This document shows positions 22,365-37,957 of a DNA stretch of 64,000 nucleotides, one piece after another; positions within the stretch are counted from its first letter, which is position 1, and the number at the start of each line of letters is the position of its first letter. The position numbers were made by a program, and so were the translations under genes. The notes under the pieces are model-generated. The model was not told the DNA's origin and did not search any database. It was given only the letters and a program-made list of their open reading frames with translations. Origin of the DNA: Hyunsoonleella jejuensis (GTDB lineage Bacteria > Bacteroidota > Bacteroidia > Flavobacteriales > Flavobacteriaceae); the NCBI RefSeq assembly GCF_900111025.1, contig NZ_FOFN01000001.1:310001-374000 (forward strand), in the 5' to 3' direction.

Positions 22365-22393
22365 TTACAGATTAAAACCTTTTTGAAGCATAT

Positions 22394-22428
22394 AATCTAA
22401 ATTTTATTGAATTTTTAGATTTTATTAT
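22394..22428 (+). terminator. Weak terminator-like hairpin before asnS
   Basis: AATCTAAA at 22394-22401 pairs with TTTAGATT at 22414-22421, followed by an A+T-rich tail. It is all A+T-rich and so weak. Confidence 0.35.
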
Positions 22429-22460
22429 TTGAATTTTCAACATTGAATCTATTATATTTA
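22429..22460 (+). promoter_or_regulatory. Candidate promoter of asnS
   Basis: TTG at 22429-22431 and TATATTTA at 22453-22460 are 21 bases apart. The -7 box has A in place of the final G. The ATG is 20 bases downstream. Confidence 0.45.
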
Positions 22461-22479
22461 CTGTTCAAAATTCTCATAC

Positions 22480-23913
22480 ATGCAGTTATATTCCGTTTCA
22501 CAATTATTAAAACAGGAAAACACATTACCAGAAGTAGAAGTAAAAGGTTGGGTAAGAACCTTTAGAGCTAATAGATTTATTGCTTTAAATGATGGCTCTA
22601 CCTTAAAAAATATACAGTGTGTTGTAGATTTCGAAAATACAGATGAGGACCTACTAAAGCGTATAACAACAGGTGCTGCATTGCATATTAAAGGAGAATT
22701 AGTAGAAAGCCAAGGGAAAGGGCAAACTGTAGAAATTCTTGTAAACGACCTAGAAGTTTTAGGCGATTCTGATCCTGAGGCATACCCCATTCAACCCAAA
22801 AAACATTCGTTTGAGTTTTTACGGGAAAACGCGCACTTACGCACCCGTACAAACACATTTAGCGCCGTAATGCGTTTGCGTTCTACATTGTCTTACGCCA
22901 TTCATAAATATTTTAATGATAACGGCTTTTACTACATGCATACGCCAATTATAACGGGCAGTGATGCTGAAGGTGCAGGCGAAATGTTTAAAGTGACTAA
23001 ACTTGATGATAAAAACCCGCCGCTTGATGAACATGGCAATGTAGATTATTCAAAAGATTTCTTTGGGAAAGAAACTAACTTAACCGTTTCTGGACAATTA
23101 GAAGCAGAAACCTACGCCATGTCCTTAGGTAAAGTTTACACCTTTGGCCCGACGTTTAGAGCTGAGAACTCGAACACTTCAAGACACTTATCAGAGTTTT
23201 GGATGATTGAGCCCGAAGTTGCTTTTATGGATTTACCAGGGAATATGGATTTGGCCGAAGATTTTCTAAAATATGTGCTCAACTACATTTTAGAAAACAA
23301 CAAAGACGATTTAGACTTCTTGGAGCAGCGTTTGATAAATGAGGAAAAAACCAAACCTCAAGCAGAACGCAGCGACATGACGTTGATAGAGAAATTAAAG
23401 TTCGTAATTGACAATAATTTTAAGCGTGTAAGCTATACTGAAGCCATTGATATTCTTAGAAATAGTAAACCTAACAAAAAGAAAAAATTCAAATTCCCCA
23501 TAAACGAATGGGGTTCAGATTTGCAAAGTGAACACGAACGCTTTTTAGTGGAAAAGCACTTTAAATGCCCTGTAATCTTGTTCGATTATCCAGCAAACAT
23601 CAAAGCTTTTTATATGCGATTGAATGAGGATGGGAAAACAGTTCGCGCTATGGATATACTCTTTCCTGGTATTGGCGAAATGGTGGGCGGTTCGCAACGT
23701 GAAGAACGCTTAGAGGTGCTTAAGGAAAAAATGGCTGCTTTAGATATTCCTGAAGATGAATTGTGGTGGTATTTAGATTTACGTAAATACGGTACTGCAG
23801 TACATTCTGGTTTTGGCTTAGGTTTTGAGCGTTTAGTGATGTTTGTCACGGGCATGGGTAATATTAGAGATGTGATTCCTTACCCGAGAACGCCTCAAAA
23901 CGCAGAATTTTAA
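22480..23913 (+). CDS. asnS: Asparagine--tRNA ligase
   Basis: The 477-residue class IIb synthetase has an N-terminal OB-fold anticodon-binding domain ([20 protein letters not shown]) and a class II catalytic core. Motif 2 is [22 protein letters not shown] and motif 3 is [29 protein letters not shown]. The final PRTP and the acidic pocket residues mark AsnRS rather than AspRS. It charges tRNA-Asn, whose gene lies at 52377-52450 in this window. The next gene, rpoN, follows after 79 bases. Confidence 0.98.
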
Positions 23914-23992
23914 ATCGACTTTGGCATAACTTTTTCATATAAGCGTTTAACTAGAAGAATTTTTATACTTTTATCTTAAACCAAATCCAAAT

Positions 23993-25453
23993 ATGCTCAA
24001 GCAACATTTACAGTTTAAATTATCACAAAAGTTATCGCCGCAACAAATTCAATTAATGAAATTGATACAGTTGCCTACACAAGCTTTTGAGCAACGCATA
24101 AAACAAGAGTTAGAAGAAAATCCCGCGCTTGAAGGTGGTAAAGAGGAAAAAGACACAGATTTAGATGCTGATTTTGAAAATAGTACAGATGATTTTGATG
24201 ATAATGAAACTATAAATGCCGAGGATATTAATGTTGACGAGTATTTGAGTGATGACGAAATACCTGATTATCGCACGCAAGCCAATAATTACAGTAGCGA
24301 TGATGATGAAAAATCTATACCTTATGCCGCGGGCACCTCGTTTACACAACATTTAATTAATCAGTTAAATACGTATAGACTTTCAGATGAAGAACGCGAT
24401 ATTGCAGAGTTTTTAGTAGGTAGTGTTGATGAAAGTGGTTATATAAGACGTTCGCTTTCTGATATTACTGATGATTTGGCATTTACCCAGAATGTATATA
24501 CCACTGAAGACAAAATTGAATCTGTCTTAAAAATTGTACATCAGTTAGATCCTGCTGGTGTTGGTGCACGAAATCTTCAGGAATGTTTAAGCATTCAATT
24601 ACACAGAAAAGAAAAAACGGCAGATACCGATTTAGCTATCGCAATTATTGACAATGCCTTTGATGCCTTTACTAAAAAGCATTACAAAAAGCTACTTCAA
24701 AAGTTTGATATTTCTGAAATACAACTCAAAGATGCCATTACTGAAATTGAGCATTTGAATCCTAAACCAGGTGGTTCCTACGCTGGTAACAATCGTATTG
24801 TAGAACACGTAGTGCCTGATTTTGCCATTAAAATCGTAGATGGTGAATTAGAATTAACATTGAATGGTAGAAATGCGCCCGAGCTTCATGTATCGCGAGA
24901 GTACAATAATATGCTAAAAGGTTATAAAGACGCTAAAAACAAAAGCAAATCGCAAAAAGATGCGGTGCTCTTTATTAAGCAGAAATTAGATGCTGCAAAG
25001 TGGTTTATAGAGGCTATAAAACAGCGCCAACAAACATTATTTGTTACCATGAGTGCCATTATGCATTACCAAAAAGACTATTTTTTAACAGGTGATGAAC
25101 GCCAATTAAAGCCTATGATTCTAAAGGATATTGCAGATGAAATTGATATGGATGTTTCCACAGTATCTCGTGTTGCCAATAGCAAGTATGTAGATACACC
25201 TTATGGTACAAAATTAATAAAGGAATTCTTTTCGGAATCGATGAAAAACGACCAAGGTGAGGATGTTTCCACTAGAGAAATTAAAAAAATACTGGAGACC
25301 GTTATAGAAGAAGAAAACAAAAGAAAACCACTTACAGATGAAGCTTTAGCCAAAATATTAAAGGAAAAAGGCTACCCTATTGCACGACGTACTGTTGCAA
25401 AATATAGGGAACAATTGGATATTCCAGTAGCACGTTTAAGAAAAAAGATATGA
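23993..25453 (+). CDS. rpoN: RNA polymerase sigma-54 factor
   Basis: The 486-residue protein has the three sigma-54 parts. Region I is Gln/Leu-rich (LSQKLSPQQIQLMKLIQLP), region II is a very acidic linker (about 45-110), and region III is the core-binding and DNA-binding part. The C-terminal RpoN box ARRTVAKYREQL, which reads the -24 element, is intact, and the helix-turn-helix DVSTVSRVANSKYV is present. It directs transcription that needs enhancer-bound AAA+ activators. Its stop overlaps the start of the next gene by 4 bases, so the two are coupled. Confidence 0.97.
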   Translation: MLKQHLQFKLSQKLSPQQIQLMKLIQLPTQAFEQRIKQELEENPALEGGKEEKDTDLDADFENSTDDFDDNETINAEDINVDEYLSDDEIPDYRTQANNYSSDDDEKSIPYAAGTSFTQHLINQLNTYRLSDEERDIAEFLVGSVDESGYIRRSLSDITDDLAFTQNVYTTEDKIESVLKIVHQLDPAGVGARNLQECLSIQLHRKEKTADTDLAIAIIDNAFDAFTKKHYKKLLQKFDISEIQLKDAITEIEHLNPKPGGSYAGNNRIVEHVVPDFAIKIVDGELELTLNGRNAPELHVSREYNNMLKGYKDAKNKSKSQKDAVLFIKQKLDAAKWFIEAIKQRQQTLFVTMSAIMHYQKDYFLTGDERQLKPMILKDIADEIDMDVSTVSRVANSKYVDTPYGTKLIKEFFSESMKNDQGEDVSTREIKKILETVIEEENKRKPLTDEALAKILKEKGYPIARRTVAKYREQLDIPVARLRKKI

Positions 25454-26058
25454 TACATCGTATCTTAAAGAGTATTTCGATTATTTTTCATCCATTAATA
25501 ATGCCAATAGCTGGTGTTATTTTTTATTTTGCCAAAACACCGCGTTTCATTGACAGGGAAGTGATTTGGGCTAAACTTGTTTCGCTTTCAATACTCACCA
25601 TCATTTTACCCATTCTTTTATATTTTTTGCTTAAAACATTAGGTAGGGTAAAGTCTATTTATTTAAGAAGCACCAAAGAGCGCATTATTCCATTAATTTT
25701 AAATATAATAGTTGTTACGCTGGTCATCCAAAGGATATTAAGACCCGATCCCTACATTGAGTTGTATTATTTTTTTGTGGGCATTTTAATTTCAACACTT
25801 GCTTGTTTAATATTGGTTCTATTTAAGTTTAAAGCAAGTATACACATGATTGCCATTTCTGGAGTGTTTATGTTCTTTATTGCATTAAGCATTCACTTCA
25901 GCATTAATATTAATGGTACTTTGGCTTTAATGTGTATTGTTATGGGTGCAGTAGCCACCTCTCGCTTGCATTTAAAAGCGCACTCATATCCCGAACTGAT
26001 TATGGGTATTGTAATTGGTGTATTTCCCCAACTTATTTTGGTAACCAATTGGCTTTAG
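25450..26058 (+). CDS. Integral membrane protein, divergent PAP2-like
   Basis: The 202-residue protein has five to six hydrophobic segments and no signal peptide. I see traces of the PAP2 phosphatase pattern: KERIIP near residue 75, a SIHMIAISG segment, and SRLHLKAH near residue 170, which fits the SRxxxxxH motif of the third PAP2 signature. The remaining motifs are weak (no clear PSGH), so activity on lipid phosphates is uncertain. It overlaps rpoN by 4 bases (ATGA), and its end overlaps the convergent barrel gene by 4 bases. I infer it belongs to the PAP2 superfamily, but it could be an unrelated conserved membrane protein. Confidence 0.65.
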   Translation: MIHRILKSISIIFHPLIMPIAGVIFYFAKTPRFIDREVIWAKLVSLSILTIILPILLYFLLKTLGRVKSIYLRSTKERIIPLILNIIVVTLVIQRILRPDPYIELYYFFVGILISTLACLILVLFKFKASIHMIAISGVFMFFIALSIHFSININGTLALMCIVMGAVATSRLHLKAHSYPELIMGIVIGVFPQLILVTNWL

Positions 26059-26750
26059 AGTACATAGAACATCAATCCTATTTTAACAGCATTCATCTCT
26101 AACGCTTCACCATTTAATTGTGCGCTATCAGAAAAAATAGGATTTAAACCATAATATACAAACACATTCCACGTATTGTACCCAACGCTTAGGGTAAGTC
26201 CGTATTGAACGTTATTAAAATCTTCATTATTGCTGTATTTTAATTCCCCTAAACTACCTTTAAACTTACTTCTATTAGCAAACACATACCCTAATTTAAA
26301 TCCTGTATAAATACGCCAAAATTTATACGTGGTAGTAGTTGATGTTCGCCATCTGTATTCAATAGGTAATTCTATAACATGTTCTGAAAACTTGTTTTTA
26401 GTAAAGCTTACGGTTTCGCCATCTATAATACTATAGTTGAAATTTCCAGAATTATCCTGTTGGATCAACATATTCTGAATATAAGAGTTTGTAGAGTACC
26501 CCAAACCTATACCAATAGCTTTGTTGCGGCGTTTATTTATGGGCATATCCTTAACAAAACCCAAATGAAACCCAAGTGAAAAACTATTCTGCTTCAAATC
26601 ATTAGGCTTCCCTCCTAATACGTTGTATGTTGTTCCTATGTAAAACTGATCTTCTTTGTATAATGAATCTACAACTTTACTTGTGATTTCTTGAGAAAAC
26701 ATCAAGGTTGCAAAAAAGGTAAAAACCAGAGCTATTAACGGCTGTTTCAT
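26055..26750 (-). CDS. Outer-membrane beta-barrel protein, porin-like
   Basis: The 231-residue protein has a signal peptide (MKQPLIALVFTFFATLMFSQ) followed by alternating amphipathic strands (FSLGFHLGF, IGIGLGYSTNSY, HVIELPIEYRW, IYTGFKLGYVF, YGLTLSVGYN) and ends with a barrel-like VKIGLMFYVL. This is the pattern of the PorT/OMP_b-brl_2 family. No specific role is evident: T9SS PorT has a similar fold, but the context here gives no support for that name. It is 39 bases downstream of the XRE-S24 regulator on the same strand, so readthrough is possible. Confidence 0.75.
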   Translation of the reverse strand: MKQPLIALVFTFFATLMFSQEITSKVVDSLYKEDQFYIGTTYNVLGGKPNDLKQNSFSLGFHLGFVKDMPINKRRNKAIGIGLGYSTNSYIQNMLIQQDNSGNFNYSIIDGETVSFTKNKFSEHVIELPIEYRWRTSTTTTYKFWRIYTGFKLGYVFANRSKFKGSLGELKYSNNEDFNNVQYGLTLSVGYNTWNVFVYYGLNPIFSDSAQLNGEALEMNAVKIGLMFYVL

Positions 26751-26788
26751 TAGATTATCGTAGCGTTATTTCAAAGATAACTTGAAAA

Positions 26789-27556
26789 TTAATTTTTCAA
26801 ACCTTTAATTGCTTTTAATTCAACATTAAGCTCCTGAAATAAGGTTGCAATACTACTTAACTTTAATTCATCTGCATCGTACTCTTGGGTATTAATACAG
26901 CAGGTAAATTCCCATAGTTCTAAGATGCTTTCCTTTTTAACATCATACGGGTTATAAAACCTATTATCACTACTTAACGTTAAGGTGTCATCATCCTTTA
27001 CATAAATACGTTTATATACTAGACCATCATCTTTCGTTAGCACAATATAAGTGCGCCCATTTTTTACCTCATTAATATCATCCATAAATTTTGCTACAAT
27101 AAAAGCCCCATCTTTCACGGGTAACATAGAATCGCCGCTAATGGGAAATGCCCTGTGCGTGCCTGTAGGTAAAAACGGGAGCTTTATTTTTTGAAGCTGC
27201 TCAATATACTCAGGATCTTCATACCCTTGTAGATAGCCTGCTGATGCTTTTGCTGGTATAATTTCAATTAAATCTTCATTAGCTTCATTTACGGTTATGG
27301 GGAATAGCACACGTTTGTTACCCACTTCAATAAAAGAGGTGTCTTTGGCTTTCCGCAAATCGTTCTTTACCAAAATATCTATAGGGATATCAAAGTAATT
27401 TGAAAGCTCTATCAGGCGATCAATTGGTGGTTCCGAACGTCCTTCTTCATACGAGCCTACCATGGAACGCGACCACCCCAACTCATCAGCAAATCGCTCC
27501 TGTGAAAACCCTTTAAGATTTCGTAAATGCTTAATGTTAGATTGAATATACTTCAT
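26789..27556 (-). CDS. XRE-type repressor with S24 (LexA/UmuD-like) domain
   Basis: About 255 residues. An N-terminal helix-turn-helix (HLRNLKGFSQERFADELGWSRSMVGSYEEG) is joined to a C-terminal S24 peptidase domain. The domain has the serine motif GDSMLP (Ser143), the lysine in VYKRIYV (Lys182), and an Ala-Gly pair at 106-107 (KASAGYL) where LexA/CI-type repressors self-cleave. This is the design of a damage-inducible repressor. I chose the ATG at 27556 because MKYIQSNIKHLR fits the family start and leaves a short leader after a TATATTTG box; another in-frame ATG lies at 27577. It is divergent from a DnaE-like/Y-family polymerase pair, which it most likely controls. Confidence 0.88.
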   Translation of the reverse strand: MKYIQSNIKHLRNLKGFSQERFADELGWSRSMVGSYEEGRSEPPIDRLIELSNYFDIPIDILVKNDLRKAKDTSFIEVGNKRVLFPITVNEANEDLIEIIPAKASAGYLQGYEDPEYIEQLQKIKLPFLPTGTHRAFPISGDSMLPVKDGAFIVAKFMDDINEVKNGRTYIVLTKDDGLVYKRIYVKDDDTLTLSSDNRFYNPYDVKKESILELWEFTCCINTQEYDADELKLSSIATLFQELNVELKAIKGLKN

Positions 27557-27580
27557 CCCAAAAATAAATTTTAACATTAT

Positions 27581-27627
27581 TTGCTACAAATATAAGCAAC
27601 AAAAACTACATATAGTAGCTAATTTTG
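27581..27627. promoter_or_regulatory. Shared operator/promoter of the repressor-polymerase cassette
   Basis: The divergent gap holds three dyads: TTGCT-N9-AGCAA (27581-27599), CTAC-N5-GTAG (27607-27619) and TAGC-N7-GCTA (27617-27631). TTTGCTA occurs twice. The first dyad covers the repressor's own -7 box (TATATTTG on the minus strand, 27587-27594). The third covers the polymerase -7 box (TAATTTTG, 27620-27627). The layout suits a repressor blocking both promoters. Confidence 0.55.
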
Positions 27628-27635
27628 CTAATCCC

Positions 27636-30600
27636 ATGTATTTAAACTGTCACACATACTACAGCTTGCGCTATGGCACTATTAAGCCCGAAAAACTGCT
27701 CGCCATTGCCTCAAAAAATGGGGTACAGACATTGGCATTGACCGATATTAACAATACATCGGTATGTTTAGATTTTGTGCGGCTTTCTGAAAAGTATGAT
27801 GTAAAACCTGTATTGGGTATTGATTTTAGAAATGGTGCACAACAACAATTTGTGCTATTGGCAAAAAACAATGAAGGATTTCAGAATATAAACAGTTACT
27901 TATCGCAATTTCTACACAACCATAATCTCGACATCCCTGAAAAAGCACCTGAGCTAGAGCACACGTATGTTATTTACCCTTATCAACATCATAAAAATTT
28001 CAACCTAAAAGCACATGAGTTTTTGGGTATTGCACCAGAGGACCTCAATAAACTTAAATTCTCGAAATGGAATAACTTCCGCAGTAAATTAGTAGTCCTA
28101 AAAACCGTTTCTTTTGAAACAAAAAAGGACTTTAACACGCACCGCTTGTTACGCGCCATTGATAATAATACCTTACTGAGCAAACTTCCTAAAAGCGAAG
28201 AAGGCAAACCCACAGATAGAATGTTGCCTTATGATGAACTGTGTGAAACCTACCAAGAATTTCCAGAGCTTTTGGAGAATACCTCAGCTATTTTAAACAA
28301 TTGCTCGATTACATTCGATTTTTCCCAAAGCACTCCAAACAACCAAAAATCGTTTACCAAAAGTGAGGATTCCGATTATAAATTATTGAAAAAACTAACT
28401 TATGAAGGACTAGCATATCGTTATGAGATCCTTAACGACACCATTTATAACCGTATAAAAAAGGAATTAAAAATCATTAAGAGTCAGAATTTTGTATCCT
28501 ACTTTTTAATTAATCATCATATTTTAGAATATGCCCGAAGCAAGGGTTATTATTACGTTGGTCGTGGTAGTGGTGCCAATAGTATCGTAGCTTACTTATT
28601 GAGAATTACGGATGTGGACCCCATAGAATTAGACCTGTATTTTGAACGTTTTATTAATCTATACCGAAAAAATCCACCCGATTTTGATATTGATTTTTCA
28701 TGGACCGATAGGGACGATATTACCGATTTCATTTTTAAAACCTTTAGGCATACAGCACTTTTAACAGTGTATAATACCTTTAAATTTAAGGCCTCGGTGC
28801 GCGAATTGGGAAAAGTTTTTGGGTTGCCAAAAGCCGAAATGGATGTGCTTACCCGAGGGCGTTACAACATAAATGCTTTGGATAAGCTGTCGCGCTTGGT
28901 CTTAACCTATAGTGAGTACATTCAAGGATTCCCCAATTACCTGGGTATTCATGCCAGTGGCATTATCATTTCAGAAAAACCCATACATTATTATACCGCC
29001 ACATTTTTGCCCCCAAAAGGCTATGCCACTACGCATTTTGATATGGTTGTTGCTGAGGATATCGGACTTTACAAATTCGATATCCTTAGTCAGCGGGGTT
29101 TGGGCAAAATAAAGGACGCCGTTGAAATTGTAGCGTATAATCATCCTGAAAAACCACCTATTGATATTCACGACATCAAACGTTTTAAACAGGACGAGCG
29201 CATCAAATATTTATTGCGAAATGCAAAAGCTATTGGCTGCTTTTACGTAGAATCTCCCGCGATGCGCATGTTACTGAAAAAATTACAGGTAGATGATTAT
29301 TTAGGTTTAGTGGCAGCAAGCTCTATTATCCGCCCCGGCGTTGCCAAATCCGGCATGATGCGTGAGTATATTTTAAGGCATCGCTATCCTGAGCGCATTA
29401 AAAAAGCCCATCCTGTTTTATTGAATATTATGCCAGAAACCTATGGTGTAATGGTTTATCAAGAAGATGTGATTAAGGTTGCCCATATTTTTGGAGGGTT
29501 GGATTTGGGGCAAGCCGATAAACTGCGCCGTGGTATGTCGGGGAAATTTCGTTCTCGTGAAGAGTTTTTAGCTGTAAAACAACAGTTTTTTGATAATTGC
29601 AAAAAAAGCGGAAAACCCGAAGCACTTACCGCAGAAGTATGGCGACAAACTGAGAGTTTTGCAGGGTATGCCTTTGCAAAAGGGCATTCAGCATCATACG
29701 CTGTGGAGAGCTACCAAAGTTTATTTTTAAAAGCCTACTATCCGTTAGAGTATATGGTGGCTACCATTAATAATTTTGGAGGGTTTTACAGAACTGAATT
29801 GTATGTTCACGAAGCCAGAATGCACGGTGGTATGATAGAAGCACCTTGTATCAATACTAGTTTTAATCAAGCAATTATTAAGGACAAAACCATTTATTTA
29901 GGCTTTATGTTTTTACACGCTTTAGAAGCTAGGACCATTAAAAATTTACTTGAAGAACGTTGCCAAAATGGAGTATTCAAAAGTCTGGATGATTTTATAG
30001 ACCGTGTACCTATTTCTGTTGAACAGATTTCTATTCTTATAAAAATTAACGCTTTTAGGTTTACGGGGGTCAATAAACGGGAATTGCTTTGGGAGGCCCA
30101 CTTAAAGATTAGTAAAACCACTTTTGAAACACATATTAATACATTGTTTGAAACTGAAAAAATCAATTATAAAACGCCCGAACTACCAAGTACAGCCTTA
30201 GAAAATGCCTTTGATGAAATAGAACTTTTAGGATTCCCACTATGTAATCCCTTTAAGCTTTTAGAAAAACCGTTTGAGACCAAACTGAAAGCCACTGATT
30301 TACCCAACCATATTGGAAAAACAATATCTATTAAAGGCTATTTAATTACCACAAAAAACACCTCTACCTCAAATGGCAAACGGATGTATTTTGGAACTTT
30401 TTTGGATTATGATGGTAATTTTATAGATTCTGTCCATTTCCCACCAATTGCAGCAAAGTATCCATTTACGGGAAAAGGGATTTATGAGATTATAGGAAAG
30501 GTAATATCGGAGTTTGATTGTATTAATATAGAGGTTTCTAAACTAGAACGTTTGACAATTATTGAAGACCCTCGTTATAAAATTGATTCCAATAATCCCA

Positions 30601-30650
30601 CATTTCAAAAGAAAAGAAGTTTTGAAGACCTAAAAATGCATTATGGTTAA
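27636..30650 (+). CDS. DnaE-like error-prone DNA polymerase III alpha subunit
   Basis: The 1004-residue C-family polymerase is shorter than replicative DnaE (about 1160-1450). It has an N-terminal PHP domain, the catalytic PPDFDIDF motif (about residues 347-354), a further aspartate in GLYKFDILSQRGLG, HASGIII, QEDVIKVAHIFGG with LRRGMSGK, FAGYAFAKGHSASYAVESYQ, and a C-terminal OB domain (TISIKGYLITTKN). The PHP metal site is degraded: the usual HxH start reads NCH and the TDHD motif reads TDIN, so no PHP exonuclease proofreading is expected. Its stop overlaps the dinB start by 8 bases. With the neighbouring repressor and Y-family polymerase this looks like a counterpart of the DnaE2/ImuC mutagenesis polymerase. 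Its chromosomal replicative paralogue is not in the window. Confidence 0.9.
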   Translation: MYLNCHTYYSLRYGTIKPEKLLAIASKNGVQTLALTDINNTSVCLDFVRLSEKYDVKPVLGIDFRNGAQQQFVLLAKNNEGFQNINSYLSQFLHNHNLDIPEKAPELEHTYVIYPYQHHKNFNLKAHEFLGIAPEDLNKLKFSKWNNFRSKLVVLKTVSFETKKDFNTHRLLRAIDNNTLLSKLPKSEEGKPTDRMLPYDELCETYQEFPELLENTSAILNNCSITFDFSQSTPNNQKSFTKSEDSDYKLLKKLTYEGLAYRYEILNDTIYNRIKKELKIIKSQNFVSYFLINHHILEYARSKGYYYVGRGSGANSIVAYLLRITDVDPIELDLYFERFINLYRKNPPDFDIDFSWTDRDDITDFIFKTFRHTALLTVYNTFKFKASVRELGKVFGLPKAEMDVLTRGRYNINALDKLSRLVLTYSEYIQGFPNYLGIHASGIIISEKPIHYYTATFLPPKGYATTHFDMVVAEDIGLYKFDILSQRGLGKIKDAVEIVAYNHPEKPPIDIHDIKRFKQDERIKYLLRNAKAIGCFYVESPAMRMLLKKLQVDDYLGLVAASSIIRPGVAKSGMMREYILRHRYPERIKKAHPVLLNIMPETYGVMVYQEDVIKVAHIFGGLDLGQADKLRRGMSGKFRSREEFLAVKQQFFDNCKKSGKPEALTAEVWRQTESFAGYAFAKGHSASYAVESYQSLFLKAYYPLEYMVATINNFGGFYRTELYVHEARMHGGMIEAPCINTSFNQAIIKDKTIYLGFMFLHALEARTIKNLLEERCQNGVFKSLDDFIDRVPISVEQISILIKINAFRFTGVNKRELLWEAHLKISKTTFETHINTLFETEKINYKTPELPSTALENAFDEIELLGFPLCNPFKLLEKPFETKLKATDLPNHIGKTISIKGYLITTKNTSTSNGKRMYFGTFLDYDGNFIDSVHFPPIAAKYPFTGKGIYEIIGKVISEFDCINIEVSKLERLTIIEDPRYKIDSNNPTFQKKRSFEDLKMHYG

Positions 30651-31860
30651 CGATCGTTCTATTGTACACATGGATTTAGATACATTTTTTGTATCCTGTG
30701 AACGCTTACTCGATAGCCGCCTTAACGGAAAACCTATTCTTATTGGTGGCACAAGCGACCGTGGTGTGGTAGCTTCCTGTAGCTACGAAGCACGCAAATT
30801 TGGCATCCACTCTGCTATGCCCATGCGAATGGCGAAGCAACTTTGTCCAGAAGCAATTGTACTTAGAGGGAATTCTGGTATCTACACGAAGTTTTCGCAG
30901 AACGTTACCGAAGTTATAAAAGACAGTGTTCCGCTTTACGAAAAAACATCTATTGACGAGTTTTATTTGGACCTCACGGGAATGGATAAATTTTTTGGTT
31001 GCCATAAACTCGCCTCCGAACTACGGCAACGTATCATAAGGGAGACTGGACTACCTATTTCCTTTGGATTGTCTATTAATAAAACCGTTTCAAAAATTGC
31101 TACAGGCGAAGCAAAACCCAACAACCAAATACGCGTACTAAAAGGTACAGAAAAGCCATTTTTAGCGCCACTTTCGGTAAAAAAAATCCCCATGGTGGGG
31201 AATGTTACCTATAAATCCTTATGTGATTTAGGCATCAAACGTATAAAAACGGTACAGGACATGCCCATGCAGCTCATGCATCGGGTATTGGGAAAAAACG
31301 GTTTGAGCATTTGGAAAAAAGCCAGCGGTATCGATAACAGCCCCGTTATACAATACCATGAACGTAAATCTATTTCCACAGAACGCACATTTAATAAAGA
31401 TACTACCGATGTTACAAAACTAAGGGGCATCATCATCGCTATGGCCGAAAATTTGGCGTACCAGTTACGTCGTGGCAATAAATTAACAGCTTGCATTACC
31501 TTTAAAATAAGGTATTCTGATTTTCAAACCTATACCCAGCAACAACGCATTCCATACAGTGCACTGGACCAAAACATTATTCCTGTGGTTTTAGATTTGT
31601 TTAAAAAACTATACAACAGGCGATTATTAGTACGACTTATTGGTGTAAAGTTTAGTCATTTAGTTGAAGGCGGCCATCAAATTAATCTCTTTGAAGACAA
31701 TGAAAAGCATTTGCACCTAAGTATGGCCATCGATAAAATGCGGGAACGTTACGGAGACAGGGCAGTAATTAATGCGGCAGGAATGGAAGCCAAAAGTATT
31801 AGCCGATGGAACCCGTTTACTGGGGAACCACCACCACTTTTAGCGAATAGGCGGCAGTAA
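30643..31860 (+). CDS. Y-family DNA polymerase (Pol IV/V-like)
   Basis: The 405-residue protein keeps the catalytic residues of a Y-family polymerase: IVHMDLDTFFVSCE at the start (Asp11) and TSIDEFYLDLTG (Asp105, Glu106). The palm, thumb (GNVTYKSLCDLGIKRIKTVQDM) and little-finger regions are complete. Near the C-terminus QINLF (346-350) is a good beta-clamp-binding motif. It should bypass DNA lesions. It is cotranscribed with, and translationally coupled to, the DnaE-like gene. Unlike ImuB of the proteobacterial cassette, its active site is intact. No imuA/sulA-like gene is present. Confidence 0.92.
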   Translation: MVNDRSIVHMDLDTFFVSCERLLDSRLNGKPILIGGTSDRGVVASCSYEARKFGIHSAMPMRMAKQLCPEAIVLRGNSGIYTKFSQNVTEVIKDSVPLYEKTSIDEFYLDLTGMDKFFGCHKLASELRQRIIRETGLPISFGLSINKTVSKIATGEAKPNNQIRVLKGTEKPFLAPLSVKKIPMVGNVTYKSLCDLGIKRIKTVQDMPMQLMHRVLGKNGLSIWKKASGIDNSPVIQYHERKSISTERTFNKDTTDVTKLRGIIIAMAENLAYQLRRGNKLTACITFKIRYSDFQTYTQQQRIPYSALDQNIIPVVLDLFKKLYNRRLLVRLIGVKFSHLVEGGHQINLFEDNEKHLHLSMAIDKMRERYGDRAVINAAGMEAKSISRWNPFTGEPPPLLANRRQ

Positions 31861-31992
31861 ACAGTTTTAACTTTTATAGTTCCAATCATGAATGAAATTG
31901 ATTTGCTTGATGCAACAAAAAGAGACACCACAAGCGGATAGACAAAAAACCCTCAAAAGAAAAAGATAAAATAATATATGTGCAATAGTACC

Positions 31993-32433
31993 TTAAAACA
32001 ACTTCCCCTTTTCCATAATCTTAAAGCCAGTACGTTTATAAAACACGCGCTTTCCATTGGCGCAAAATGTGTAATTCCCACTTGCTTTTTTTTCAAAAGC
32101 AGATAACAGCACCACGTCGTCTACCGTACAATCATAATCTTTCGCTACCTTCGTTTTTATATGGCTAATCGTAGCTCTACCTTTTTTAAGTTGCGCTTGC
32201 ACTTTACCATTTAGTTTTGGTTCTTTAAAATCCTTGGGGAGGTCACATGTTTTATCAGTAGTTTTTGGTGTTACTATTTTTTCGTCCGAGGGTTTTTCTA
32301 AATCAATATATTCCCAAGTAAAATCTGCTTTAAGCAGTACACGACGGCCATCATCGGTTTTTACTATGTGATTGTCTTGTGAAAAACCAATGGAAGAAAC
32401 GAGTAACAGAAGAAAAAAAACAAATGATTTCAT
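31993..32433 (-). CDS. Secreted DUF3157-like protein
   Basis: About 146 residues, starting with a signal peptide (MKSFVFFLLLLVSSIGFSQ). The body begins HIVKTDDGRRVLLKADFTWEYID, the hallmark of small Bacteroidota DUF3157-type proteins. Two cysteines (CDLP, FCANGK) and a basic C-terminus follow. I chose the ATG at 32433 because it puts the signal peptide at the N-terminus; an in-frame start 11 codons upstream would add a hydrophobic but non-signal-like extension. The role is unknown. The 132-base gap to the polymerase gene on the other strand holds nothing I recognise. Confidence 0.7.
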   Translation of the reverse strand: MKSFVFFLLLLVSSIGFSQDNHIVKTDDGRRVLLKADFTWEYIDLEKPSDEKIVTPKTTDKTCDLPKDFKEPKLNGKVQAQLKKGRATISHIKTKVAKDYDCTVDDVVLLSAFEKKASGNYTFCANGKRVFYKRTGFKIMEKGKLF

Positions 32434-32475
32434 AGCAAAAAATGTAAAGTTGAAAACGTTTCTCAAAAATACAAT

Positions 32476-32682
32476 TTAATCTTCAACATACTCTAAAATA
32501 TCAGCAGGTTGGCAATCCAACGCTTTACAAATAGCTTCTAAAGTTGAAAAGCGAACAGCTTTGGCTTTACCAGATTTTAATATTGATAGATTCGCTTCAG
32601 TGATACCAATAATTTCTGCCAATTCTTTACTTTTCATGTTTCGCTTGGTAAGCATGATGTCTAGGTTTACAATTATTGGCAT
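32476..32682 (-). CDS. Small XRE-family helix-turn-helix regulator
   Basis: The 68-residue protein is a single Cro/CI-type HTH (MKSKELAEIIGITEANLSILKSGKAKAVRFSTLEAICKALDCQPADIL), the short form common next to DUF2975 membrane genes. It is the last gene of a three-gene operon after two DUF2975 proteins, with a 2-base gap. It probably binds the paired dyads upstream of the operon and sets its expression, which is inference from arrangement. Confidence 0.9.
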   Translation of the reverse strand: MPIIVNLDIMLTKRNMKSKELAEIIGITEANLSILKSGKAKAVRFSTLEAICKALDCQPADILEYVED

Positions 32683-32684
32683 AT

Positions 32685-33260
32685 TTATATGGTTAAGTCG
32701 TTTTCTTGTTTTAGATAATGACCTTGTTTTATCAATTGAGAAATAATCATTAAAAAGAGAGATACGATAAATATTGGAAAACCAACTGATACAATAAATA
32801 GAAATAGGTTACTCATAGTAAAACCTAATGCATAACCAAATTCGTAGGTTAGTGTTTTCGAAACGTCTTCAAATGGTTTATAATAAAAAACAATACTAAT
32901 TGTTATCTTAAAGATTAGTAAAATGATTCCGAAAACTAAAAGACCTTTCCCAATTTTAAATAGTTGAATTCCGTTCTCTTCATTAAATATTAAGTTGTTT
33001 GATAAATCTCTAGTTGTCTTTCTAAAAATATTTAGCAAATAGAATAGATAAATCAAGAGAGTAAAACTTAAAATTGATGCAATTATGTAAAATGAATGGT
33101 TAACATCATCGGGAATCTTAATTCCAAGAAAAATTTCTCTTTTAGATTGATTATTAACAACAAAATGATAAAAACCATTCAGTTGCTTTAATGCGAAATA
33201 TATAACCCCAAAAGAAAGAAGAATATTTAACCATTTTAGAGATAAGACTAATTTTTTCAT
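32685..33260 (-). CDS. DUF2975 family membrane protein (second copy)
   Basis: The 191-residue protein has four membrane segments (about 8-26, 55-75, 105-125, 150-175) in the DUF2975 layout, with a conserved IGKGLLVFGIIL helix and a final LIKQGHYLKQENDLTI. The C-terminal ENDLTI is identical to that of the upstream neighbour, showing that the two are paralogues. DUF2975 proteins are usually encoded with a small XRE regulator, as here. Their function is unknown; a membrane sensor that modulates the regulator is one guess. Confidence 0.85.
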   Translation of the reverse strand: MKKLVLSLKWLNILLSFGVIYFALKQLNGFYHFVVNNQSKREIFLGIKIPDDVNHSFYIIASILSFTLLIYLFYLLNIFRKTTRDLSNNLIFNEENGIQLFKIGKGLLVFGIILLIFKITISIVFYYKPFEDVSKTLTYEFGYALGFTMSNLFLFIVSVGFPIFIVSLFLMIISQLIKQGHYLKQENDLTI

Positions 33261-33262
33261 AA

Positions 33263-33766
33263 TTAAATTGTTAAATCGTTTTCTTCTTGTGTTTTTCTTG
33301 CCTTTGTAAAAACTTCACTTAAAAACATAAAAAACAGACCAATTATTATAGGCGTAATTAAAGAAAAATCTATTCCAAACCTAATATCTCCCAATAGTAG
33401 TAACCTTATAACGAATTTAAAAACCGCATAGGAAACTCCACAAATTAATATAAGCTTGCCTCCCATTTTAAAATTTTCAGTTATCAATTCAGAAAAATAG
33501 TTGCCTTCAGATAACTCTTTTAAAGTTCCCTTTAATAAATAAATAGCCCTAACAAACAGTATATAAATAACAACTAGTACCGCTGTAATAACTATCAGTT
33601 TTTGAGTACTTAAGCTTGAAGTATTATACCCTTCAATAACTTTTAAATCGACCGTTTCACCCTGCTGGAATATAGTTACAATGAAAATAACTATTCCAAC
33701 AAGCACTAATAGCAATAAATAATAATAAATGTTTATTAGTTTTCTTAAAACTTCAATAGTGTTCAT
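33263..33766 (-). CDS. DUF2975 family membrane protein (first copy)
   Basis: The 167-residue protein has four membrane segments and ends in QEENDLTI like its downstream paralogue, from which it is separated by 2 bases. It is the first gene of the DUF2975-DUF2975-XRE operon. The N-terminal helix is followed by a periplasmic loop (QQGETVDLKVIEGYNTSSLS), then three further helices. The duplication is old: apart from the tail and general pattern the sequences differ widely. Confidence 0.85.
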   Translation of the reverse strand: MNTIEVLRKLINIYYYLLLLVLVGIVIFIVTIFQQGETVDLKVIEGYNTSSLSTQKLIVITAVLVVIYILFVRAIYLLKGTLKELSEGNYFSELITENFKMGGKLILICGVSYAVFKFVIRLLLLGDIRFGIDFSLITPIIIGLFFMFLSEVFTKARKTQEENDLTI

Positions 33767-33777
33767 TATACATAAAA

Positions 33778-33828
33778 TTATTGTTTAACAATAACAAAAA
33801 TATAAAAAATTATTGAAAAACAATAATT
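33778..33828 (-). promoter_or_regulatory. Promoter with two matching operator dyads for the DUF2975-XRE operon
   Basis: Dyad 1 is TTATTGTT-T-AACAATAA (33778-33794). Dyad 2 is AATTATTG-AAAAA-CAATAATT (33808-33828). Both use the half-site TTATTG, and their centres are 32 bases apart, about three helical turns. The minus-strand -7 box TATTTTTG (33795-33802) lies between them and the -33 TTG (33821-33823) is inside dyad 2, so both sites overlap the promoter. This fits binding by a dimeric XRE protein. Confidence 0.65.
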
Positions 33829-33896
33829 CTTATTTAAAAAGTGTACTTAGATAAACCGCTTATATTATTTATCTTTACCTATATTATATACTATTT

Positions 33897-34328
33897 ATGC
33901 CACAAACCTTCACTACAATTGCCAAATACCAATATTCAAGCGAAGCTCAAATTATAAAAGGTCGCCTGGAGGCTGATGGTATTCAAGTTTTTCTTTCAGA
34001 TAATTTAACTATCGATACCGATCCGTTAGTAAGTAACGCTATTGGTGGTGTGAAGCTTAAAGTATTGACACATCAAGCTTCAGAAGCACAAGACATTTTA
34101 AAATCTATTGAGAAATATTCTGTTGATGATAACGGCAATACTATTATTTGCCCAAATTGTAAAAGCGAAAAAATAGAACTGTTTTCAACTATAAAAAATG
34201 TTAAATCATTTTTTGCATTTATTTTTGCTCTTGTTTTAAACATTTTTGTAAATGTACTTCCGCTTTACGAAAAACACAGATATAAATGTGAAGATTGTAA
34301 TACTGAATTTGATATGAAAAAATCCTAA
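33897..34328 (+). CDS. DUF2007 domain protein with zinc-ribbon cysteines
   Basis: The 143-residue protein starts with a DUF2007 domain (TTIAKYQYSSEAQIIKGRLEADGIQVFL, about 1-75), a small fold found in proposed signal-transducing proteins. CPNC (about residue 85) and CEDC (about 133) look like the two knuckles of a zinc ribbon, but a hydrophobic, probably membrane-spanning segment (about 102-120) lies between them. It is divergent from the DUF2975 operon, sharing a 130-base promoter region. Function is unknown. Confidence 0.8.
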   Translation: MPQTFTTIAKYQYSSEAQIIKGRLEADGIQVFLSDNLTIDTDPLVSNAIGGVKLKVLTHQASEAQDILKSIEKYSVDDNGNTIICPNCKSEKIELFSTIKNVKSFFAFIFALVLNIFVNVLPLYEKHRYKCEDCNTEFDMKKS

Positions 34329-34346
34329 ATATAAAACACCCGAAGG

Positions 34347-35840
34347 CTAACCCAAAGACACAGCTTTATAAGCTTTCTTTAACTTTTTAATTACACGCTC
34401 TATTTCTTCTTCATTTAAATGCCCAAATCCAAAACGAATAGCGCACGTATTTTTATCTTGATAAAGTATCGTTTTTGGAATATATAAATCATTTTTATCA
34501 GCCTCTTCTACTAATTTAATCAATGAAATTTTAGGATTAAACTGCAACCAAATTGCTAATCCTCCAGAAGGTATTTTCCAACTTAAAACCCCTTTAAAGT
34601 TAATTTCTAAACACTTATATAAACAATCGCGTCGTTCCTTGTAGGTAATAATGTTTTTTTTCATGAGACGATATATTTCGCCTTCAGAAATTAGCTCCGT
34701 AAGCATTTGTTCTTGAATAACATCGCCTTGTCTATCTAGTAGTTGCAAATAGTTTTTTGCTTCAGAAATTAAATTCTCGGGAGCTACAACAAATCCCGTT
34801 TGAAAACTAGGAAATAACGATTGCCCAAACTTTCCTAAATAAATTACCACGCCATTTGCATCGGCACTAGCCATAGGCAACATTGCCGAACCATTAAATT
34901 GAAAATCGTAATCATAATCATCTTCAATTATCGCAAACTCGTACGCTTTTGCCAATTCTAATAATTCCAGCCTTCTTTCGGCACTTAAGGTTTGCGTGGT
35001 TGGATAATGCCTATGCGCACAAACATACACACTTCGAATACTGCCCTTAACAAAATGTCTCTTAATGTATTGAACATCCAAACCATTGGCATCAACAGGA
35101 ACCGTTTTTATAGCGGCGCCCGCTTGTTGAAAAATCATATTAGCCGCGTAATTACTAAGATTACCCACCAAAACCACATCACCCTGCTTGACTAATAGCT
35201 GTGAAACAATATAAAGACTCATTTCGGTACTTCGCGTACTAATTAAATTATAGGGCTTGATATGAAATCCTCTTGTCGCATTCAAGTAATTACAAAGCTG
35301 TGTTTCAAAAGTAGAGACATATTGTGGAGTTGTATTCCATTTAGAAACTAAAGACTTGCGTTTCATTACAGCACTATACCATCTAGAAAACTCATGCACG
35401 GGATGTAATCTTAAATCTGGTTTGCCATCATTTATGCTATATCGCGCCTTGGTAGCCTGTGATGTAGAGGCCAAATTAAGTGATGACTGAAAAGGAAATC
35501 CTGTTTGTTTAGAATACGCATAAGCTTGTTTTACGTGATGGGAAGTCGCTTTAATGGCTACTGTTGTTTGTTCTGGCACCAACACGAATGTGCCCTTGTT
35601 TGGGATAATTTCTACCCAACCTTGAGATGCCAATTCATCGTAAACCGCTACAACCGTATTACGATGAATATGTAATGTCTTACTTAAAACCCTAGAACCA
35701 GGCAATACTACCCCTTTTTGTAAATACCCACGCTGAATCGCATTAATAACCTGTTGTGCTATCTGTATATAAACAGGTTTGGTATCTGATTTATCAAAAT
35801 GAATTAACTGCTCTAAAATGTCAACAACCGGACTATTCAT
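34347..35840 (-). CDS. MocR-type GntR regulator with aminotransferase-like domain, PLP lysine missing
   Basis: The 497-residue protein has an N-terminal GntR winged helix (KPVYIQIAQQVINAIQRGYL, then LPGSRVLSKTLHIHRNTVVAVYDEL) joined to a fold-type I aminotransferase domain (about 120-497; EDDYDYDF, CAIRFGFGHL). In MocR proteins the lysine that binds pyridoxal phosphate sits in a motif like YLGTFSKTL. Here the motif reads YLGKFGQSL, with Gln340 in place of lysine. The usual GDVVLVEDPGYP is also changed to GDVVLVGNLSNYA. It probably cannot hold PLP covalently and may sense another ligand. It is divergent from a TonB receptor, the usual arrangement of a MocR regulator and its target. Confidence 0.88.
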   Translation of the reverse strand: MNSPVVDILEQLIHFDKSDTKPVYIQIAQQVINAIQRGYLQKGVVLPGSRVLSKTLHIHRNTVVAVYDELASQGWVEIIPNKGTFVLVPEQTTVAIKATSHHVKQAYAYSKQTGFPFQSSLNLASTSQATKARYSINDGKPDLRLHPVHEFSRWYSAVMKRKSLVSKWNTTPQYVSTFETQLCNYLNATRGFHIKPYNLISTRSTEMSLYIVSQLLVKQGDVVLVGNLSNYAANMIFQQAGAAIKTVPVDANGLDVQYIKRHFVKGSIRSVYVCAHRHYPTTQTLSAERRLELLELAKAYEFAIIEDDYDYDFQFNGSAMLPMASADANGVVIYLGKFGQSLFPSFQTGFVVAPENLISEAKNYLQLLDRQGDVIQEQMLTELISEGEIYRLMKKNIITYKERRDCLYKCLEINFKGVLSWKIPSGGLAIWLQFNPKISLIKLVEEADKNDLYIPKTILYQDKNTCAIRFGFGHLNEEEIERVIKKLKKAYKAVSLG

Positions 35841-35873
35841 TGTTTTAAAACTGGACTATTTAAATCGTCCGGA
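35828..35873. promoter_or_regulatory. Direct repeats between the MocR-like gene and the TonB receptor
   Basis: CCGGACTATT (35828-35837) and CTGGACTATT (35851-35860) are direct repeats exactly 23 bases apart, and an inverted GTCCGG follows at 35868-35873. MocR regulators commonly bind two direct repeats about two helical turns apart. The first repeat overlaps the regulator's own first codons. Confidence 0.5.
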
Positions 35874-35913
35874 AAGTTACGATTTTTGCAGCGTTTTTAA
35901 ATCATACATTTTT

Positions 35914-37731
35914 ATGAGAACCAAACTTACTTTTCTGGCAATTATATCTGCTTTTGTTATAGGCTATTCACAGGAAAAACCTCAGAAACAAAAGCTTGAT
36001 ACAGTAGTAATCTCCTCTACAAGAATTGATTTACCGTTTAAGGAAAATTCTAGAACTATTGATGTCATTACTTCAGAAGATATTAAAAACAGTGGCACAA
36101 ACAATATTGCCGATTTATTACAACAGGTGGCTGGTGTTGATATAAGACGTCGCGGAACCGCTGGAAGTCAAGCCGATTTGTATATTCGTGGTGGAAGTTT
36201 CGACCAAACACTATTGCTAATTGACGGTATTAAAATGGATGATGCACAAACGGGCCACCACACCATGAATGCAGCATTACCCATTGAAGTTATTGAGCGT
36301 ATAGAAATTATAAAAGGACCTGCAGCACGAGTATTTGGACAAAATGCATTTACTGGAGCCATAAATATTGTAACCAAAAAGCAATTGAAAAATACGGTAT
36401 CTACGAACTTAGAAACTGGTTCTTTTGGGCAATTGAATGGGTCCGTTACCGTTGGTTCAGAGTTAGAGCATTCCTCTCATATTATTCATGCGGGGAAACT
36501 AACTTCGGAGGGTTACAGAAATAATTCAGATTATAACAACTCTAACTATTTCATTAAAAGTATATTTAATAAAAAGGCACAGGCCATCGAGATGATTGCT
36601 ACGTTTTTCGATAGAAAATTTGGGGCGGAAAACTTTTATACTACAAACCCAGATTGGAACGAATATGAAGAAACACAAAACAGTTTAATTGGATTTACCA
36701 CAACCTTTACATCTGAAAATTTAAAAATAAGACCTCGCGTGTATTGGAAACGCAATCAGGATATGTTTCTTTTAAAGCGCAACGAACCAAACTTTTTTAG
36801 AAACCTACATATTACAGATAAAATAGGAGCAGAAGCAAATGCATCATACAATTCAAACCTTGGTGTAACGGGTTTCGGAATCGATATGTCAAAAATCTAT
36901 ATAAGGAGTAATAACCTTGGGAATAGAAACCGATTTATGACAAATTTGTTCTTAGAGCACCAATTCAAATTATTCAATGATAAATTGGATGTTACGCCAG
37001 GTATAGCTGTGACGTATTTTTCAGATTTTAAATTTCATGCCTTTCCGGGTTTAGACGTTGGTTATAGATTAAACGACAGCTTTAAAATTTACGCAAACAC
37101 AGGTAACACCTATCGTATTCCAACGTATACTGATTTATTTTACAGCGATCCTGCAACTGTTGGTAACGAAAACCTAGAACCAGAAGAAGCACTTTCGTTT
37201 GAATTTGGAGGGAAATACTTTTCAACAAAATTCAATGGTTCGTTCGCAGTGTTTTATAGAGACGCCAGTAAATTAATAGATTATGTAAAGGAGAATGCAG
37301 CAGACCGTTTTATGGCCACTAACCTTCGTGATTTATATACCAAAGGGTTTGAAGCAAATGCAAGCTATAACTTTAAAATAGGCCGTATGCCTCAAAACTT
37401 AGCAATGGGTTATACCTTTATTGAAGACGAGGTGGGCGATTTAAATATCAATTTTTCTAGATATTCGATTAATTCATTAAAACATCATTTCACCTCGCGT
37501 TTGAGTTCGCAACTCTCTAAAACCATCAATTTTAACGTCATCTACAAACATGCGGAGCGCACCGCAGGCCTAAGCTATAATGTTTGGGATGCTTCAGCTG
37601 TAATCACAGTTAAACAGTTTGAGTTTACCCTTACCGCAGCTAATATTTTTGATGCGGAATATATTGAGACAGGCTTTGTACCAATGCCACCTAGCAATGT
37701 GCTGTTTGGCTTACGCTATGGTTTTAATTAA
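35914..37731 (+). CDS. TonB-dependent receptor, BtuB-like
   Basis: About 605 residues from the ATG at 35914, which starts a good signal peptide (MRTKLTFLAIISAFVIGYSQ); an in-frame ATG 32 codons upstream lies in the promoter and is unlikely. A TonB box-like DTVVISSTR is followed by the plug (IADLLQQVAGVDIRRRG, LYIRGGSFDQTLLLIDGIKMDD, ERIEIIKGPAARVFGQNAFTGAINIVTKK) and a 22-strand-type barrel ending in FGLRYGFN. It takes up a small ligand across the outer membrane with TonB energy. The plug resembles cobalamin-type receptors, but I see no cobalamin riboswitch upstream. Control by the divergent MocR-like protein is likely. The substrate is unknown. Confidence 0.88.
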   Translation: MRTKLTFLAIISAFVIGYSQEKPQKQKLDTVVISSTRIDLPFKENSRTIDVITSEDIKNSGTNNIADLLQQVAGVDIRRRGTAGSQADLYIRGGSFDQTLLLIDGIKMDDAQTGHHTMNAALPIEVIERIEIIKGPAARVFGQNAFTGAINIVTKKQLKNTVSTNLETGSFGQLNGSVTVGSELEHSSHIIHAGKLTSEGYRNNSDYNNSNYFIKSIFNKKAQAIEMIATFFDRKFGAENFYTTNPDWNEYEETQNSLIGFTTTFTSENLKIRPRVYWKRNQDMFLLKRNEPNFFRNLHITDKIGAEANASYNSNLGVTGFGIDMSKIYIRSNNLGNRNRFMTNLFLEHQFKLFNDKLDVTPGIAVTYFSDFKFHAFPGLDVGYRLNDSFKIYANTGNTYRIPTYTDLFYSDPATVGNENLEPEEALSFEFGGKYFSTKFNGSFAVFYRDASKLIDYVKENAADRFMATNLRDLYTKGFEANASYNFKIGRMPQNLAMGYTFIEDEVGDLNINFSRYSINSLKHHFTSRLSSQLSKTINFNVIYKHAERTAGLSYNVWDASAVITVKQFEFTLTAANIFDAEYIETGFVPMPPSNVLFGLRYGFN

Positions 37732-37762
37732 AAACTATTTTGAATAAAACTTTCTAAAGCTT

Positions 37763-37896
37763 CGCGTTAGGGATTGTGCTTCGAGTACCTCAGCAACCAT
37801 AGTAGCAGCTTTTGTTCCCACTATTTGGGAAATAAAATGATTAACGGAAAGCCCTATCTACAGTAATACGCTTGCGGTAGAAAGGCGCCCAAAATA
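37763..37896. repeat. Dispersed structured element, copy A
   Basis: Intergenic element sharing anchors with copy B at 54735-54884: GCGTTAGGGATTG at 37764-37776, TTAACGGAAAGCCC at 37841-37854, and CGCCCAAA near the end. Between the anchors are hairpins CCCA/TGGG (about 37817-37830) and TCTAC/GTAGA (about 37856-37881). Their sequences differ from copy B but their positions match. Confidence 0.7.
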
Positions 37897-37927
37897 CTAT
37901 TTAGTAATTAGTAACGTTTTGTTAACT

Positions 37928-37954
37928 TTGTAATAGTAAACTAAACTAAATTTG
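37928..37954 (+). promoter_or_regulatory. Candidate promoter of the cupin/JmjC gene
   Basis: TTG at 37928-37930 and TAAATTTG at 37947-37954, 16 bases apart (somewhat short). The -7 box overlaps the first possible TTG start codon (37952), favouring the second at 37958. Confidence 0.45.
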
Positions 37955-37957
37955 GCG

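Follow-up and report, generated by a model that had tools for sequence, protein, structure and literature searches.

The window analysed here is a stretch of 64,000 nucleotides from Hyunsoonleella jejuensis (Flavobacteriaceae; assembly GCF_900111025.1, contig NZ_FOFN01000001.1, positions 310,001 to 374,000 of the forward strand). It contains an S24-type repressor gene that is divergent from two overlapping polymerase genes, dnaE2 and a Y-family gene (polY). Judged from its sequence, this locus is probably a mutasome under a private repressor that also represses itself and is released through RecA; it would form a self-contained SOS-like module. The reading draws on the anatomy of the locus, the conservation of residues and operators, the lack of a second S24 protein in the genome, and the co-segregation of repressor type with operator type across the family. 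Positions below are those of the window.

Organization of the locus

A first-pass annotation, made from the letters of the stretch, had described a repressor divergent from two overlapping polymerase genes. Open reading frames (ORFs) at 26789-27577 (minus strand), 27636-30650 (plus) and 30643-31860 (plus) bear this out, and the dnaE2 and polY frames overlap by 8 bp. The intergenic gap between the repressor gene and dnaE2 is 58 bp and holds two putative operators, O1 and O2, with centres 22 bp apart. The nearest named relative found is Hyunsoonleella aestuarii (repressor identity 93%). The features of the locus are as follows.

26789-27577, minus: repressor with a CI-type helix-turn-helix (HTH) and an S24 peptidase domain; probable start codon 27556 (255 aa); Pfam and residue conservation
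27236-27241, minus: Ala113-Gly114, predicted cleavage site; 105 of 105 distinct homologues
27128-27130, minus: Ser150, predicted catalytic dyad; 105 of 105 distinct homologues
27011-27013, minus: Lys189, predicted catalytic dyad; 105 of 105 distinct homologues
27584-27596, unstranded: putative operator O1, CTAC-AAATA-TAAG, containing the repressor -7 box; CTACAAAT[AG]TAAG in 68 of 69 named divergent loci
27587-27594, minus: -7 box TATATTTG of the repressor promoter (TAnnTTTG consensus); CTACAAAnnTA in 69 of 69 named divergent loci
27606-27618, unstranded: putative operator O2, perfect palindrome CTAC-ATATA-GTAG; perfect CTAC-N5-GTAG in 53 of 69 named divergent loci
27620-27627, plus: -7 box TAATTTTG of the polymerase operon promoter; TAnnTTTG at most 3 nt after GTAG in 40 of 69 named divergent loci
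27636-30650, plus: DnaE2-type (DnaE2B-like) polymerase, 1004 aa; Pfam; D351, D353, D482; PHP positions N4 and I38; weak INTLF at 834-838
30643-31860, plus: Y-family polymerase, 405 aa; Pfam; D11, D105, E106; 8-bp overlap with dnaE2
31678-31692, plus: PolY QINLF, beta-clamp motif; residue conservation
31693-31770, plus: PolY tail, residues 351-376, RecA-NT-like motif; local alignment to the N-terminus of the same genome's RecA

Operators and promoters

O1 encloses the -7 box of the repressor promoter, and the polymerase -7 box starts one base past O2. The -7 box consensus, as given in the accessible part of PMC9723704, is TAnnTTTG. O2 (CTAC-ATATA-GTAG, 27606-27618) is a 4-N5-4 palindrome within the repressor's own promoter region. 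Neither GGA-N5-TCC nor CTAA-N5-TTAG is present in the gap of the window.

Among 80 named loci fetched with the repressor, dnaE2 is divergent within 400 bp in 69, divergent at a greater distance in 5, and absent from the retrieved stretch in 6. An O1-type sequence is present in 68 of the 69 divergent loci (single-base shuffles, 0.0), the perfect CTAC-N5-GTAG in 53 (shuffles, 0.06/69) and the double operator CTAC-N18-CT-N7-GTAG in 58 (shuffles, 0.04/69); these counts measure conservation and not independent chance, because the loci share descent and supplied the patterns. The motifs GGA-N5-TCC and CTAA-N5-TTAG occur in 0 and 6 of the same loci (shuffles, 0.34/69 and 0.32/69, respectively). The repressor-side -7 box is found in all 69; on the polymerase side, 40 loci have the complete TAnnTTTG no more than 3 nt from GTAG.

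The dnaE2 ATG starts 9 bases after the end of the polymerase -7 box (27620-27636), so the dnaE2 mRNA may be almost leaderless.

The repressor

By Pfam, the repressor consists of HTH_3 and Peptidase_S24, and no model is above its cut-off in the NCBIfam scan. Ala113-Gly114, Ser150 and Lys189 are each invariant in 105 of 105 distinct homologues (at least 55% identity; rows below 85% of the length dropped), in agreement with the Ser-Lys dyad and Ala-Gly site named in the first-pass annotation. The same annotation called the repressor XRE-type and not LexA. This also stands, as the domains are those given above and the canonical LexA model TIGR00498 has no match in the genome; the same search is positive in 9 of 14 control genomes.

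Residues 1-7 are unconserved among the homologues, and conservation sets in only with Met8. The probable start codon is therefore at 27556 (255 aa) and not at 27577, where the gene was first called. Conservation is the sole basis for this start. An argument from the nearby -7 box was dropped, as dnaE2 has an equally close box.

The polymerases

The DnaE-like protein has PHP, DNA_pol3_alpha, finger and HHH_6 domains by Pfam and is similar to solved DNA polymerase III alpha chains. The Y-family protein has IMS and IMS_C. Only general NCBIfam models are above cut-off, namely TIGR00594 (DNA polymerase III alpha) and PRK02406 (DNA polymerase IV). At least 95% of 129 distinct PolY homologues share each of D11, D105, E106 and, in QINLF (346-350), the Q, L and F. 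The first-pass annotation had described the enzyme as catalytically intact with a clamp motif, and by its residues it is. The PolY tail aligns to the N-terminus of the same genome's RecA with a local score of 35 in a single-pair test; 4 of 5000 shuffles of the tail reach this score (highest, 43), and the RecA N-terminus scores 25 against PolY 1-345. Such a RecA-NT-like tail is known from Y-family enzymes thought to bind RecA, according to the accessible part of PMC6511836.

At least 95% of 99 distinct DnaE2 homologues share each of D351, D353 and D482, and a clamp-like motif is weak (INTLF at 834-838, of the xxxLF type). The PHP positions N4 and I38, the two that are histidine in canonical PHP motifs, are kept at the same level in the same set. 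DnaE2 enzymes as a rule have a broken PHP site (PMC3919608), and N4 and I38 are in agreement with this general loss. The first-pass annotation was thus right that the site is broken, and the trait is ordinary for DnaE2. The broken site, the short protein and Pfam domains that end at HHH_6 could also mean that DnaE2 is no longer a working mutagenic polymerase and that PolY alone matters. With the polymerase Asp triad and its surrounding motifs kept in at least 95% of the 99 homologues, and PHP breakage usual in DnaE2, this is highly improbable.

Repressor and operator types in the Flavobacteriaceae

The first-pass annotation had proposed a survey of the gene trio. It was run on 120 Flavobacteriaceae genomes, each from another genus, with loci tallied by hand. 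Repressors of the type found in the window (CTAC type) occur at 42 loci (44-100% identity) in 40 of the 120 genomes. Nineteen of these are directly divergent from dnaE2, 11 are divergent from a polY-dnaE2 operon and 1 lies by a dnaE2 fragment (G047). The remaining 11 are taken up below.

There are 68 dnaE2 cassettes in 66 genomes. The 250 bp upstream of the first gene of each cassette were scanned for operators. Where the genome contains the CTAC-type repressor (34 cassettes), the double CTAC operator is found at 24 cassettes, the perfect CTAC-N5-GTAG at 14 and the GGA motif at none. Where the genome does not contain it (34 cassettes), the CTAC operator is found at none and the GGA motif at 28. 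The latter number is an undercount, because two of the six misses (L063 and L184) were scanned from a dnaE that lies behind polY and hold GGA sites in the gap between polY and the repressor gene. A third miss (L229) has no upstream sequence. The cassette of G017 has neither motif, and its genome has no repressor match of any kind.

The GGA-type repressors show the corresponding pattern. In a set of 11, GGA sites are present upstream in 10. In 20 further genomes with GGA cassettes, the best repressor match is closer to the GGA type and its own gene is preceded by GGA sites in 20 of 20. Two genomes, G118 and G022, contain both repressor types and have cassettes with no GGA site; the G118 cassette has a near-CTAC pair and the G022 cassette nothing convincing. 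Repressor type thus co-segregates with operator type. In G003 and G084, the repressor and the cassette are on different contigs and a perfect CTAC-N5-GTAG is still close to the cassette start, which suggests control in trans.

Some loci depart from the simple arrangement. At L059 (G113:C1:1905800-1906030), an HTH-only repressor remnant with an 84-aa frame lies by dnaE2, and a full-length copy is about 1.15 Mb away. G061 and G049 each have two CTAC-type repressor copies, and each G061 copy adjoins its own cassette. One in-frame TGA interrupts each of the dnaE2 matches at G049:C27:408074-411058 and G030:C2:61306-64266. A further XRE-S24 clade in the family (L176, L177, L179-L182) has no polymerase matches in the retrieved stretches and no clear shared operator.

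Phylogenies of the repressor and polymerases

In the repressor tree (50 rows, built without published reference sequences), the CTAC type (30 rows; 94/94), the GGA type (11 rows; 100/99) and the CTAA type (2 rows; 100/100) form separate clades, with 7 other rows. The CTAC clade adjoins the CTAA clade. The deep joins are unsure because of long branches.

The polymerase trees are different in that the operator types are interleaved. On the DnaE2 tree (34 rows), the CTAC label must change 5 times, and starred, that is, well-supported, branches force 2 of these changes. The operator types are also interleaved in the PolY tree (64 rows), which leaves out 4 cassettes with no full PolY. A count was made on 55 rows of this tree, with 9 rows that have no recognised operator dropped and with near matches accepted by eye under the CTAC label. 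On these rows operator type changes 5 times, and starred branches force at least 4 of the changes. Gene order changes once on the same rows.

The operator switch thus seems to have changed hands several times among related species, by change in place or by whole-cassette transfer. A more specific history is possible, although we hold it with somewhat less than even confidence: the Flavobacteriaceae mutasome may have been handed repeatedly between a GGA-N5-TCC SOS repressor and a private, divergent CTAC-N5-GTAG repressor with essentially one target. If so, mutagenesis would have been switched in and out of the general SOS response during evolution. In a model put forward in 2021 (PMC8565304), SOS operators acquire a different motif once a diverged copy of the repressor captures targets that belonged to another. 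The cassette is a single orthologous operon found in two states across related genera, with several changes on its tree, and a hand-over is therefore directly testable by exchange of repressor and operator. With the CTAC operator, polymerase genes likely to be under damage control can also be recognised from the DNA sequence of many marine flavobacteria.

Target range and origin of the repressor

The assembly (3.48 Mb, 99.99% complete) encodes one S24 protein, which is the cassette repressor, one RecA, two Y-family proteins including the cassette PolY, and one DnaE besides the cassette copy. GGA-type control in this genome was rejected, as there is no second S24 protein and the gap has no GGA site.

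The genome has 28 occurrences of CTAC-N5-GTAG, compared with 42 for the reversed control. All 28 sites were inspected and the cassette alone stood out; two others are intergenic. Under the strict pattern, there is no CTAC site in the recA promoter or before the other Y-family gene. The best non-cassette match (C4:88784) is inside a gene, by eye one for an MCE/MlaD-type protein. Across the 120 genomes, a pattern of operator plus -7 box has 24 matches, 14 of them by DnaE2 cassettes; the other 10 compare with about 68 matches of the reversed control. Among the matches of a spacer-restricted pattern in 15 genomes, 20 loci were read, corresponding to 15 distinct sites; 14 are outside the cassette, and no second recurrent gene was seen by eye in those read. 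A wider CTAC regulon is therefore not shown by the strict patterns, and the genome count stays under its reversed control. That the repressor has essentially one target is something we only infer, because degenerate sites escape strict patterns.

The repressor could instead do everything that LexA does elsewhere, with recA and further repair genes also under its control through degenerate CTAC sites that these patterns miss. It is the only S24 protein of a nearly complete genome, and its published relatives, which have GGA or CTAA motifs, each act on several operons (PMC8565304). The genomic count below its control, the empty recA and Y-family promoters and the lack of a second recurring gene among the sites read make such a role unlikely.

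A domesticated phage or mobile-element regulator that answers a non-RecA signal, with incidental control of the polymerases, is highly improbable. Its HTH is CI-like, 11 phage records match (all below 60% identity), and related dinB-dnaE pairs are annotated on Bacteroidota plasmids. The Ala-Gly site and Ser-Lys dyad are nevertheless invariant, the operators are conserved at both promoters, co-inheritance with the cassette is long, and no phage genes were recognised by eye in the flanking ORFs (window 20000-38000). Phage origin was rejected, with distant phage matches only. Plasmid carriage was likewise rejected; among the matches listed, the best Bacteroidota rows are below 60% identity. The plasmids with annotated dinB-dnaE relatives are NZ_CP055155.1 (Adhaeribacter) and NZ_CP033916.1 (Chryseobacterium).

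Proposed working of the module

In the preferred reading, that of a self-contained mutasome under its own repressor, the CI-type S24 repressor would sit as dimers on O1 and O2 and keep both divergent promoters closed. Once DNA is damaged, the RecA filament would trigger self-cleavage at Ala113-Gly114 through Ser150 and Lys189, and both promoters would open. An error-prone translesion mutasome would then assemble on the sliding clamp from DnaE2, PolY and RecA, as published predictions for relatives suggest.

Several points weigh against this reading. Eleven of the 42 CTAC-type repressor loci have no adjoining DnaE2 cassette; in two of these, a second copy in G049 adjoins PolY pieces and a copy in G089 adjoins a PolY start at a contig end. 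The strict double operator is missing from 10 of the 34 cassettes whose genomes have this repressor type, and in four of the ten (L056, L059, L239 and L254) nothing convincing is seen by eye. One GGA-type repressor, L186 (G080), has no upstream GGA palindrome. The recA promoter lacks a strict CTAC site, and the shuffle counts overstate independence, as the operator patterns were drawn from loci of shared descent. An AlphaFold model of the repressor from an 11-row alignment has a mean predicted local distance difference test score of 42.9 and was not used. For this clade the support comes from sequence.

Relation to known systems

CI-like S24 proteins termed non-canonical LexA are reported to regulate the SOS response in Bacteroidetes, through two motifs and some diverged forms, and specific binding and mitomycin C induction are reported for published members (PMC8565304). 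The repressor of the window shares with them the CI-like HTH and S24 domains, the Ala-Gly site, the Ser-Lys dyad, 4-N5-4 palindromes and, as predicted, error-prone polymerase targets; the Elizabethkingia regulator is also opposite an error-prone polymerase gene. It differs in its operator, CTAC-N5-GTAG in place of GGA-N5-TCC, CTAA-N5-TTAG or TTAC-N5-GTAA, and in that no wider regulon is seen with strict patterns.

DnaE2 with an active PolY is described in Bacteroidetes, for example in Cellulophaga algicola (PMC6511836), and RecA is presumed to be the third part of DnaE2B-PolY-RecA (PMC12926913, PMC6511836). The locus has the same DnaE2 next to an active Y-family polymerase, a RecA-NT-like tail and no ImuA over cut-off. 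No essential difference is seen, and the accessible parts of these two papers do not describe the repressor or operators. Assignment to the DnaE2B subgroup is taken from the papers and not from a sequence test.

The lexA-imuA-imuB-dnaE2 cassette is similar in its repressor-linked DnaE2 and Y-family partner. The locus is unlike it in having no LexA match, no ImuA over cut-off, and a catalytically intact Y-family enzyme in place of ImuB. In the ImuA search only the RecA gene matched, under cut-off, and as none of the 14 control genomes passed either, this absence is not firm. In the accessible text of PMC8565304 and PMC13148647, HdiR and UmuDAb are S24 repressors mainly over error-prone polymerases and FddR is one over a small damage-responsive module. 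These are from other lineages and are likened here by description, not sequence.

In function, the locus belongs with the Bacteroidetes DnaE2B-PolY-RecA systems under non-canonical LexA, a kind already known. Particular to it is the divergent private repressor with CTAC-N5-GTAG operators in part of the Flavobacteriaceae, others having the GGA-N5-TCC repressor. The SOS-like mutagenesis cassette proposed in the first-pass annotation is partly supported. It fits the invariance of the predicted autocleavage residues, the pair of putative operators at the two promoters, a PolY that is intact and has both a clamp and a RecA-like motif, and the lack of a LexA match. The arrangement is less unusual than it claimed, since imuA-less DnaE2 with active PolY and CI-like repressors are published. 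The operators, and the exchange of repressor and operator between related genomes, go beyond what it had noticed. No published report of the CTAC operator or its repeated exchange was found, and the spelled motif returned 0 papers. Neither CTAC nor GTAG appears as a string in the main text of PMC8565304; its supplementary table of diverged palindromes, outside the search, may hold the motif.

Neighbouring genes

By eye, the gene at 39646-40119 (minus strand), about 8 kb from the mutasome, is recX, a RecA regulator. The window also contains a single 1445-aa frame at 57976-62313 (plus strand), read by eye as a CusA/CzcA-type efflux pump with an in-frame TolC-like outer membrane factor.

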